Below are positions 5,613 to 10,593 of a stretch of DNA of 28,947 nucleotides, piece by piece (the first letter of the stretch is position 1; each line of letters begins with the position of its first letter). Source of the stretch: a virus. The notes beneath the pieces were generated by a model. That model saw only the letters and a program-made list of their open reading frames with translations. It did not search any database and was not told the origin of the DNA. The translations under genes and the position numbers were made by a program. The stretch covers positions 1 through 28,947 of IMG/VR virus record IMGVR_UViG_3300025120_000369; one strand, written 5' to 3'.

Positions 5613-5619
5613 TATTTAT
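5613..5619 (+). promoter_or_regulatory. TATTTAT motif, candidate late promoter
   Basis: TATTTAT (extended CTATTTATTAC) lies in the 92-base gap between 5582 and 5675, directly after a hairpin. It matches motifs in the gaps at 10172, 21566, 24535 and 27639. It is about 55 bases before the next ATG. The evidence is only the shared sequence and position. Confidence 0.3.
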
Positions 5620-8785: not shown

Positions 8786-9042
8786 TAGTAGAAGTAATGT
8801 TAGGAGTCTTTGTTGTAGGTTGTTTAGTTCAAGCTTATGTAATTTGGAACTTGATGATTAAACAAGAGAAACTTGAAGATTGGACTGAAAAGTATATTGA
8901 CAAGATTCAACAAGTTAATACAAATCTTACTGAAATAGACTATAAAGGATATTTTGAAGTAGATGATGAAGTAGGAACAATTTTTACACAGATTAAAGAA
9001 GAAGTAAAATCACTAGAAGAATTAACAGAAGAGGAGTTATAA
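8782..9042 (+). CDS. Single-span membrane protein with acidic tail
   Basis: An 86-residue protein with one N-terminal membrane helix (about 4-26) followed by a charged helical region (KQEKLEDWTEKYIDKIQQ) and an acidic tail ending TEEEL. It overlaps the HD hydrolase stop by 4 bases and its own stop shares a base with the late sigma start, so all three are likely co-translated. Function unknown. Similar small proteins occur beside gp55 in marine T4-like phages, as far as I recall. Confidence 0.65.
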   Translation: MIVEVMLGVFVVGCLVQAYVIWNLMIKQEKLEDWTEKYIDKIQQVNTNLTEIDYKGYFEVDDEVGTIFTQIKEEVKSLEELTEEEL

Positions 9043-9770
9043 TGCCAAGAAAAGCTAAAAAGGGTTCATCAAGATATTATTTTACACAGAAAACAGAGGA
9101 TGCTATTATTCGTTATAATAGTGAAGAAAGAGCTCCTATGAGAAATAAGATTTACAACGACCACATAGCTGCGGCATTTGACAAGTTGTGTGAAAATATA
9201 ATTCATACATTTAAATTTTATTACTTTGATGTTTCTTCAGAAGAAGTAAAACACGAAGTGGTTAGTTTTTTAGTTATGAATATGCATAAGTTTACAGCAG
9301 GTAAAGGGAAAGCTTTCTCTTACTTTAGTATTGTAGCTAAAAATTATTTAATATTACACAACAATAACAATTATAAAAAAATGAAAACACACGATAAAGA
9401 AGATGTGTTGGATTGGGATAGAAGTATTCAAACAGAAATACAACAGAAAGATACAAGTCAAGCATACAATGAGTTTGTAAAACAAATGTTAGAATACTGG
9501 GATAATAATATGAATGTAATATTCAGACGACACAAAGATATTCGTGTTGCTGACGCAGTATTACATATTTTTAGAATAAAAGGTAATATAGAAAATTTCA
9601 ATAAAAAAGCGTTATACATCTTGATAAGAGAAATGACGCAGTCAAATACACAACACATTACACGAGTTATTAATGTAATGAAGAAATATCAAAAAGGAAT
9701 CTATAAAGAATTTCAACTAAATGGATACATTGATACAAAGACCACCGGGTCATTTGTAATCCATAATTAA
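9042..9770 (+). CDS. 55: Late-transcription sigma factor (T4 gp55-like)
   Basis: A 242-residue basic protein whose region about 44-115 matches a sigma region-2-like helical domain seen in gp55 proteins of marine T4-like phages. It includes AFDKLCENI, VKHEVVSFLVMNMHKF and GKAFSYFSIVAKNYLI (90-105). The remainder is a divergent helical C-terminal part. It would direct host RNA polymerase to late promoters together with the sliding clamp. T4 gp55 is 185 residues, so this one is longer. It is coupled to the upstream gene by TAATG. Its target may be the TATATTTATTA-like sites in nearby gaps. Assignment rests on motif recognition, not on a search. Confidence 0.7.
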   Translation: MPRKAKKGSSRYYFTQKTEDAIIRYNSEERAPMRNKIYNDHIAAAFDKLCENIIHTFKFYYFDVSSEEVKHEVVSFLVMNMHKFTAGKGKAFSYFSIVAKNYLILHNNNNYKKMKTHDKEDVLDWDRSIQTEIQQKDTSQAYNEFVKQMLEYWDNNMNVIFRRHKDIRVADAVLHIFRIKGNIENFNKKALYILIREMTQSNTQHITRVINVMKKYQKGIYKEFQLNGYIDTKTTGSFVIHN

Positions 9771-9795
9771 TATATATAATTACTTATTAAAGAAT

Positions 9796-9826
9796 TTGGG
9801 TTTATTTCTTTACAGGATAGACCCAA
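9796..9826 (+). other. Leader hairpin before the two-helix membrane gene
   Basis: A 9-bp stem, TTGGGTTTA (9796-9804) and TAGACCCAA (9818-9826), including one G-U pair, with a 13-base loop. It ends 31 bases before ATG 9858 and is not followed by a U-tract, so it is more likely a 5'-leader structure than a terminator. It could stabilise the message or adjust translation. Confidence 0.5.
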
Positions 9827-9857
9827 TGTTAGTTCAATAATACGGAGGATATAGACT

Positions 9858-10079
9858 ATGAAAGATATCGTAACAACAATAAAGGGATATGTAAATGATT
9901 TAGTTCAGTTATCAATGTCGCTTGTTGCATTCGGAGCAGTAGCAGGGATTTTATTTCCAGGTGGAATGTTTGGAATGGATGTAATCGGTAATCTGATATC
10001 ACTAGTTAATAAGTTTGGAGAAGCTGGTTTTGCTGGTTTCATCACTTTAGTGGTATTAGTCGGTTTATTTCGTAAGTAG
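9858..10079 (+). CDS. Two-helix small membrane protein, holin-like size
   Basis: A 73-residue hydrophobic protein with an amphipathic start (MKDIVTTIKGYVNDL), a first membrane helix (about 14-34), a Gly-rich turn (PGGMFGMDVIGN), and a second membrane helix (about 54-71) ending in a basic FRK. I recall similar proteins in marine T4-like phages without known function. Size and topology would fit a holin, but so would other small membrane roles. It is set apart as a single transcription unit: strong GGAGG ribosome site, a hairpin in front, and a hairpin plus intrinsic terminator behind. That suggests strong, separate expression. Confidence 0.75.
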   Translation: MKDIVTTIKGYVNDLVQLSMSLVAFGAVAGILFPGGMFGMDVIGNLISLVNKFGEAGFAGFITLVVLVGLFRK

Positions 10080-10093
10080 GAACACGAAATACA

Positions 10094-10120
10094 TAAGCAA
10101 TAAATCCTACATATTGCTTA
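10094..10120 (+). other. 9-bp hairpin in the 3' region of the membrane gene
   Basis: A perfect inverted repeat, TAAGCAATA (10094-10102) and TATTGCTTA (10112-10120), with a 9-base loop. It begins 14 bases after the stop and is followed 10 bases later by the intrinsic terminator stem. It has no T-run of its own. It may protect the 3' end of the message. Confidence 0.55.
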
Positions 10121-10130
10121 ATTAAAAATT

Positions 10131-10164
10131 GGGAACAGAATAAAATATTTTGTTCCCTTTTTTT
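10131..10164 (+). terminator. Strong intrinsic (Rho-independent) terminator
   Basis: GGGAACAGAATA (10131-10142) pairs with TATTTTGTTCCC (10146-10157) to give a 12-bp stem with one G-U pair and a 3-base AAA loop, followed at once by seven T residues (10158-10164). It lies between the two-helix membrane gene and the virion module and would insulate the baseplate operon from upstream transcription. Confidence 0.9.
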
Positions 10165-10171
10165 ATTGCCA

Positions 10172-10180
10172 TATATTTAT
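10172..10180 (+). promoter_or_regulatory. TATATTTAT motif, candidate late promoter of the virion module
   Basis: TATATTTAT, extended to TATATTTATTAC, lies just past the terminator and 17 bases before ATG 10198. After a transcription start about 6 bases downstream, the AAAGGA ribosome site (10185-10190) would be at the very 5' end of the message. Because the terminator isolates the module, a promoter is needed here, which strengthens this site. Confidence 0.5.
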
Positions 10181-10197
10181 TACCAAAGGATTATATT

Positions 10198-10593
10198 ATG
10201 TCAAACGATTATGAAATATTCAAAGGTAAATCGTTAGCCTCACTATTTGAAGATATTTATCAAAACCAAACCTATAACAGAAACCAATTAGATGTTTTGA
10301 CAAAAAATATCACAGCAATGATAAAAGATGGTGATACAGCAGTTCAGATTATACCAATGATGAAAGAATACTTAGAAATCAATGTTAGAAATGATGAATT
10401 ATTGATTAAATTAGCTTCAATTGTTCAGAAAATTATTTCTGCAGAAAATAAGGGTGAGTCTGAAAGTGAGTTCGGATTATCTGAAAACGAAAAAGAACAG
10501 ATACTACAAACCATAGTGGAACACGATACTATGGATTTACAAAAAGCATCTGACAAGATTACAAAAGAAATAAGTTCTTCTAAAAAAGATTAA
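10198..10593 (+). CDS. Conserved small virion-module protein
   Basis: A 131-residue acidic, helical protein. I chose ATG 10198 because AAAGGA sits 7 bases upstream; an earlier in-frame ATG at 10150 lies inside the terminator stem and adds a spurious hydrophobic leader. The region FKGKSLASLFEDIYQNQ followed by an evenly spaced helical repeat looks like a phage-specific family often placed just before the baseplate hub gene in marine T4-like phages. This is my recollection, not verified. It may be a baseplate or assembly factor. The gp5-like gene begins 3 bases after its stop. Confidence 0.6.
   Translation: MSNDYEIFKGKSLASLFEDIYQNQTYNRNQLDVLTKNITAMIKDGDTAVQIIPMMKEYLEINVRNDELLIKLASIVQKIISAENKGESESEFGLSENEKEQILQTIVEHDTMDLQKASDKITKEISSSKKD

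Follow-up and report, generated by a model that had tools for sequence, protein, structure and literature searches.

A small membrane-protein gene with folded RNA ends in uncultured phages and its relatives in a bacterial gene pair

The locus described here raises the question of why a phage that packs most of its genes closely should set apart one gene for a 73-residue membrane protein between RNA structures, and of what that protein might be. The stretch analysed (the window, 28,947 nucleotides of the IMG/VR virus record IMGVR_UViG_3300025120_000369) had been given a preliminary description, which placed the gene amid a leader hairpin, a hairpin after the stop codon and a strong terminator, and which proves right in substance; the features as they now stand are collected in Table 1. 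The close packing of most other genes is also borne out, as only 7 of the 33 ORF-derived genes of the window are preceded by more than 35 nt of intergenic sequence, the first of these gaps being the window's own start. The stop of the preceding gene lies at 9770. Positions 9042-9770 encode a conserved protein of 242 residues that is also present in an uncultured phage record and in the Flavobacterium phage immuto and the Microcystis phage Mel-JY01 (40-43% identity); it looked sigma-like to the eye, but a sigma factor was set aside for want of support in any library.

Table 1. Positions of the gene and of its flanking signals in the window.
Feature	Position	Strand	Detail
Promoter-like box	9781..9789	+	TACTTATTA; pattern TA[TGC]TTAT[TA]A
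Leader hairpin	9796..9826	+	12 pairs counting G-T
Shine-Dalgarno sequence	9844..9849	+	GGAGGA
Gene for a 73-residue membrane protein with two predicted helices, homologue of bacterial paralogue B	9858..10079	+	ATG 9858, TAG 10077-10079
Stop-codon hairpin	10066..10091	+	TATTTCGT (loop AAGTAGGAAC) ACGAAATA; TAG inside loop
Putative kissing helix, 5' strand	10076..10081	+	GTAGGA, includes stop codon
Post-stop hairpin	10094..10120	+	TAAGCAATA (loop AATCCTACA) TATTGCTTA; 9 bp
Putative kissing helix, 3' strand	10105-10110	+	TCCTAC, in post-stop loop
Intrinsic terminator	10131..10164	+	12-pair stem 10131-10157, 3-nt loop, then seven T

Successive searches of viral contigs returned 8, 109, 464 and finally at least 544 stretches with relatives of the gene, and the gene was gathered from 253 loci, 113 of which are distinct from -60 to +40. 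A tblastn search of 50,697 phage records gave no match to the window protein (E ≤ 1) or to a typed consensus of the family (E ≤ 5). The reading frame is under coding constraint, with pN of 0.02-0.15 against pS of 0.07-0.38 when the window is compared with four relatives (L001, L004, L005 and L006), and protein constraint is also strong between L091 and L157 (pN 0.03, pS 0.44), two loci whose neighbouring genes, in the comparison of surroundings given next, have no cluster in common despite the constrained homologue that they share.

The surroundings of the gene were compared in 85 loci, of which 60 carry both of the flanking families of the window, 14 carry one and 9 neither, with the gene not among the ORFs kept in the remaining 2. 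In immuto and Mel-JY01 the homologues of the two flanking genes adjoin, 33 and 5 nt apart, and several genes beyond them are also homologous and in the same order, with no match to the 73-residue gene between the flanking-gene homologues; the gene of the window thus lies between phage genes that are neighbours in cultured relatives. In other contigs it sits amid unrelated genes, and it thus moves as a unit. Its orientation is likewise independent of its neighbours, the nearest long ORFs being both antiparallel to it in 89 of the 113 distinct loci and both parallel in 7 (the clade of the window), while in the other 17 the flanking orientation is mixed or one side is missing. At its far end the 12-bp terminator with a run of seven T, noted in the preliminary description, folds far better than shuffled sequence (z -5.9, with 0/200 shuffles as good) and is found by one mechanical rule in 97 of the 106 loci with enough sequence. 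Between 6000 and 14000 of the window there are 6 terminator-like sites against 2.3 (sd 1.9) expected, and two of the 6 belong to this gene, namely its leader hairpin and its terminator. Just past the terminator, on the opposite strand, tRNA genes (Ala, Thr, Glu and others) are present in 8/8 loci scanned, these loci (L007, L022, L026, L037, L050, L054, L064 and L082) having been picked for looking tRNA-like there. The separate control that had been proposed for the gene gains from its promoter-like box, its own terminator, its independent orientation and its absence from the two cultured phages, and on this sequence evidence there is good support for taking it as an autonomous cassette under control of its own.

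The 3' end of this unit holds more structure than had been described. The nine-pair hairpin after the stop codon is confirmed, the region 10060-10130 folding with z -3.0 (1/200 shuffles as good), and to it can be added a second hairpin that holds the stop codon in its loop. The GTAGGA of this loop is complementary to the TCCTAC of the post-stop loop, so that the two could form kissing loops; neither the stop-codon hairpin nor the loop-loop complementarity featured in the earlier account. By one mechanical rule the stop-codon hairpin is present in 99 of the 113 distinct loci, window included, and the folding of the stop region reaches z ≤ -2 in 91/111 loci, as against 33/113 for controls taken from the middle of the coding sequence. 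When 39 matches (37 distinct) are aligned, 98.1% of cells are paired in the stop-codon hairpin and 98.8% in the post-stop hairpin. A lack of hairpin conservation in related phages, which would have counted against the preliminary description, is not what was seen: the hairpins are conserved, and the post-stop stem covaries, with double changes at 7/7 pairs in the relatives.

For the kissing helix itself the evidence is of a more mixed kind. Its seven pairs are formed in 86.3% of cells of the 39-match alignment, a helix which by itself did not exceed shuffles and whose outermost pair is mostly unpaired. A larger set of 70 aligned matches, drawn from 100 sources and 48 of them distinct, has the five-pair core paired in 48/48 rows, a result that is partly built in, since the rows were collected by a model favouring loops of the GTAGGA/TCCTAC type. 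Two of these rows, from two lineages, have both partners of one pair changed in a compensatory manner; the other 4/5 core pairs are invariant, three of them being the stop codon, and therefore the covariation of the kissing helix rests on one core pair, in two lineages, together with the adjoining pair. A count that uses no model found a hairpin whose loop is complementary to the stop region in 73/113 loci, against 497/6,896 control windows (7.2%) from the same genes, a comparison between related loci that is not to be read as a probability.

Since one kissing pair is changed on both sides in L023, further loci with AAATAGG at the stop were sought, which gave 44 stretches, 8 of them family members. 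Four of these (L169, L180, L195 and L184) carry the matching loop CCTAT rather than CCTAC; the first three form one lineage, in which the next kissing pair is changed as well, from A-U to C-G, and L184 comes from the same contig as L023. The remaining members are three without the second hairpin (L170, L192 and L200) and one in which it is present with a different loop (L209). Among stretches with a different stop codon ahead of GG there was a single family member, L217 with a TAA stop, and this had no matching loop. No match in the window reaches the Rfam gathering score, the best sub-threshold row in 9740-10220 having E 0.78. The idea that the 3' structure serves readthrough of the stop codon was rejected because the frame after the stop runs for seven codons in the window and is not conserved, as judged by eye.

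These observations bring in the alternative that survives best, namely that the 3' structure is in itself a regulatory device, whose kissing loops would sense ribosomes at the stop or whose 3' end would be freed as a stable small RNA. The pairing does take in the stop codon, the alternative loop solutions TACCTAC and CCTAT both retain that pairing, and the tail of hairpin, hairpin and terminator is compact. The kissing pairing is, however, absent from 40/113 loci, L091 and L093 among them, and among 13 virus records searched whole the element is confined to the gene, being found there in 12 and nowhere in one, apart from one weak second match away from the gene in G254 (E 0.0066). We regard a device of this kind as unlikely, if well short of negligible.

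At the 5' end, the box TACTTATTA conforms to a pattern, TA[TGC]TTAT[TA]A, that occurs 7 times on the plus strand of the window, and 5 of these occurrences fall between genes (at 5613, 9781, 10174, 21568 and 27641). This distribution suggests a phage promoter, and the pattern, standing ahead of other genes also, may be the phage's own promoter type. In relatives a box like TA[TGC]TTATTA ends directly 5' of the leader hairpin (by eye), and a loose form of the pattern was found upstream in 102/113 distinct loci. The T4-type late promoter TATAAATA, which lies within 160 nt upstream in 88/113 distinct loci, is out as the promoter of the window gene because that gene does not have it in the preceding 160 nt, carrying TACTTATTA at 9781 instead; the clade of the window lacks it too. 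Taking the spacing of T4 late promoters as a guide, we presume that transcription begins near 9794, where the leader hairpin has its foot, and the hairpin would then probably be the 5' end of the transcript. The hairpin had been described as having 9 bp; it exists, but with 12 pairs once G-T is counted. The fold has z -1.4 on 9785-9870 (14/200 shuffles as good) and z -2.1 on the 77-nt leader, so that by itself, in the sequence of the window alone, it is not strong. Across the 113 distinct loci, by one mechanical rule, a leader hairpin with G+C pairs is nonetheless present in 104, window included, and the folding of the leader reaches z ≤ -2 in 66, compared with 33 for the mid-CDS controls; the hairpins of other clades stand at the equivalent place with unrelated sequences. 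A universal outer stem TAGTTA/TAACTA around the hairpin was entertained and dropped, many relatives having it and several clades not (by eye).

A leader of this kind might also be taken for an attenuator, in which the hairpin and the T-run of many relatives would act as a conditional terminator that throttles the gene. A run of at least five T is present somewhere in the leader of 98/113 loci, often directly 3' of the hairpin by eye, and several leaders of the bacterial A genes introduced below look similar. Against this, the clade of the window has no T-run after the hairpin, the hairpin stands at the predicted start of the transcript, where termination would be unusual, and a T-run also fits a ribosome-binding enhancer; attenuation is accordingly a reading to which we give little credence.

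As to the protein, the window product could be placed in none of the families of PHROGs, Pfam and NCBIfam at E ≤ 1, and five relatives searched against PHROGs at E ≤ 5 gave just two weak rows with no function assigned. Its relatives outside phages were met in a profile search (profile A4, 62 phage proteins) of 245 genomes of one bacterial phylum, 114 of which match at E ≤ 1e-3, 81 of these with two or more matches, and 131 of which do not; the only record searched from outside the phylum was that of phage T4, whose lack of a match shows little by itself. Where the loci were read, the matches are adjacent genes for proteins of about 69 residues (here called A) and about 72 residues (B), which against Pfam and NCBIfam give no model above cut-off and weak rows at most. 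A strong hairpin (score ≥ 18) occurs in 8/12 leaders of host A genes, compared with 7/121 control leaders. In L312 and L329 (G159 and G157) the pair is repeated in tandem as A-B-A-B, with copies that are identical in the residues printed.

The phage protein is homologous to host B. Profile homology is full-length (positions 1-73) to a chromosomal match in G001 with E 1.8e-14, and by hhalign the phage family matches host B (99.4%, E 6.8e-22) better than host A (97.3%, E 1.9e-11). A tree of 53 rows groups the 25 sampled phage proteins as a single clade (100/97), which falls on the B side of an A/B split of 100/99, the tree being unrooted, built from 73 columns and having one long-branched host row that joins the phage clade. 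The mean identity of the phage proteins to host B is 36%, the best-scoring pair compared, L032 and the B protein of the bacterium TMED198, reaching 47%. This metagenome-assembled genome also includes a contig (L089) that carries a phage-type gene, its A-B pair lying on a different contig. A tblastn search with the host B protein gave no match in the 50,697 phage records at E ≤ 1. The tandem partner A was not seen in the phages, five matched virus records (G002-G006) having a single match each, though these may be fragments, and the gene is single-copy in 253/253 loci under a rule based on identity, to which copies of A type would be invisible.

From this distribution we infer that the gene passed from host to phage, and the hosts of these phages probably belong to the phylum that carries the A-B pair. 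Some phage contigs with a related gene hold other genes of note: a secretion-system sorting tail with a dockerin (PF18962, PF00404) at L113:6628-7500, TonB C-terminal domains beside the membrane gene at L113:4279-4638 and L157:4281-4610, and, at L108:5863-6306, a protein whose N-terminus has a methylation motif like that of type IV pilins (PF07963, E 1.6e-07), which two ORFs at about 5866-6769 of L112 resemble by eye. The L113 and L157 genes are uncommon cargo for a phage and give a hint of the host group. The sorting tail and dockerin, together with similar-looking tails near two host pairs (by eye), suggest a phylum in the Bacteroidota-Marinisomatota neighbourhood.

This family history bears directly on the holin that the preliminary description had offered as a possibility. 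Taken a step further, that reading would have the hairpins time the synthesis of a holin or another membrane protein of lysis. Class II holins are of similar size and have two helices, and the phage protein, at 73 residues with two predicted helices, a late-type TATAAATA box before many of its relatives and a strong terminator of its own, would not look out of place among them. Nothing positive points to it, in that no PHROGs, Pfam or NCBIfam model for it matched, its non-phage relatives are membrane proteins encoded in tandem throughout the loci read in a single phylum, and the architecture favours a high output, when holins are usually made sparingly; we consider it distinctly unlikely.

The modelled structure is of modest confidence (pLDDT 70.5, pTM 0.37). 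A sequence search of the PDB with the protein gave nothing under E 0.48, and Foldseek with the model gave nothing under E 4.9 in the PDB and BFVD. A role in superinfection exclusion or in a virion or pilus-like assembly, jobs that small two-helix proteins do perform, is improbable, for although VIA-align paired the model with two conjugation pilins (Z 6.8, rmsd 4.8, 73 aligned; Z 4.6, rmsd 4.2, 63 aligned), only 5 chains were aligned, the secretion-motor protein 7sax fell between the two at Z 5.0, such Z values are common for helical hairpins, and the single Foldseek match in the PDB had E 8.5.

The reading that we prefer, with a probability of roughly 0.6, is that a B-type membrane protein of host origin is carried by these phages as an autonomous, high-output cassette with folded ends. 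Such a cassette would run from the promoter-like box through a structured leader and a strong ribosome-binding site to a 3' end folded around the stop codon and an intrinsic terminator. The leader hairpin would begin the transcript and protect the message, and the two 3' loops would kiss, protecting its other end and perhaps pacing termination, with the outcome that much protein would be made late in infection; the abundance and stability of the message, which the preliminary description also proposed, are suggested by this architecture. The phage B protein would then enter the host membrane, where it may add to, replace or disturb the host A-B assembly. A bolder form of the argument, which we offer tentatively and think more doubtful than not, holds that the kissing-loop pair is a new mRNA 3' element that hides the stop codon and closes again after each ribosome has terminated, so driving very high output of the captured B half of a phylum-specific two-part membrane assembly, which the phage would take over or poison late. 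On that view phage genomes would offer a handle on an unknown membrane machine. Should A and B truly make up a two-part assembly in the host, the phage has picked out just one of its halves, which would point to a membrane function worth solving. Through this family, named in none of the libraries searched, uncultured phage contigs in their hundreds are tied to a single phylum of bacteria, and an RNA element at the stop codon with compensatory changes could be tested in a reporter. The titles and abstract openings of the literature consulted held nothing describing the gene, its paired host relatives or the RNA element, which is no proof of absence.

The closest comparison is with the host A-B pair itself, which shares with the phage gene its length, its two-helix layout and a C-terminal G-x-AGL-x-AL motif, the phage protein being of B type by profile and by tree. 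In the host loci read there is a hairpin in the A leader and a terminator-like hairpin after B (by eye), much as in the phage cassette; in contrast, the phage has B only, and the stop-loop complementarity was not seen by eye in 12 host tails. Among phage systems, the expression module of T7 gene 10 combines a stem-loop at the start of the transcript, a U-rich stretch, a strong Shine-Dalgarno sequence and a terminator past the gene, and is like the cassette in layout. That module drives the major capsid protein, whereas the cassette carries a small membrane protein, and we know of no stop-codon kissing loops in it. The T4 late genes e, soc and 49 also have structured leaders; what the cassette has in common with them is the upstream TATAAATA (in the 88 loci noted above) and the setting of an isolated small gene, but its leader hairpin does not cover the Shine-Dalgarno sequence, and in the window TACTTATTA takes the place of TATAAATA. 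Auxiliary genes that phages have taken from their hosts are a known class, which the present gene resembles in having a homologous host family and in being a single added gene, and from which it differs in encoding a small membrane protein rather than an enzyme and in bringing an RNA architecture of its own.
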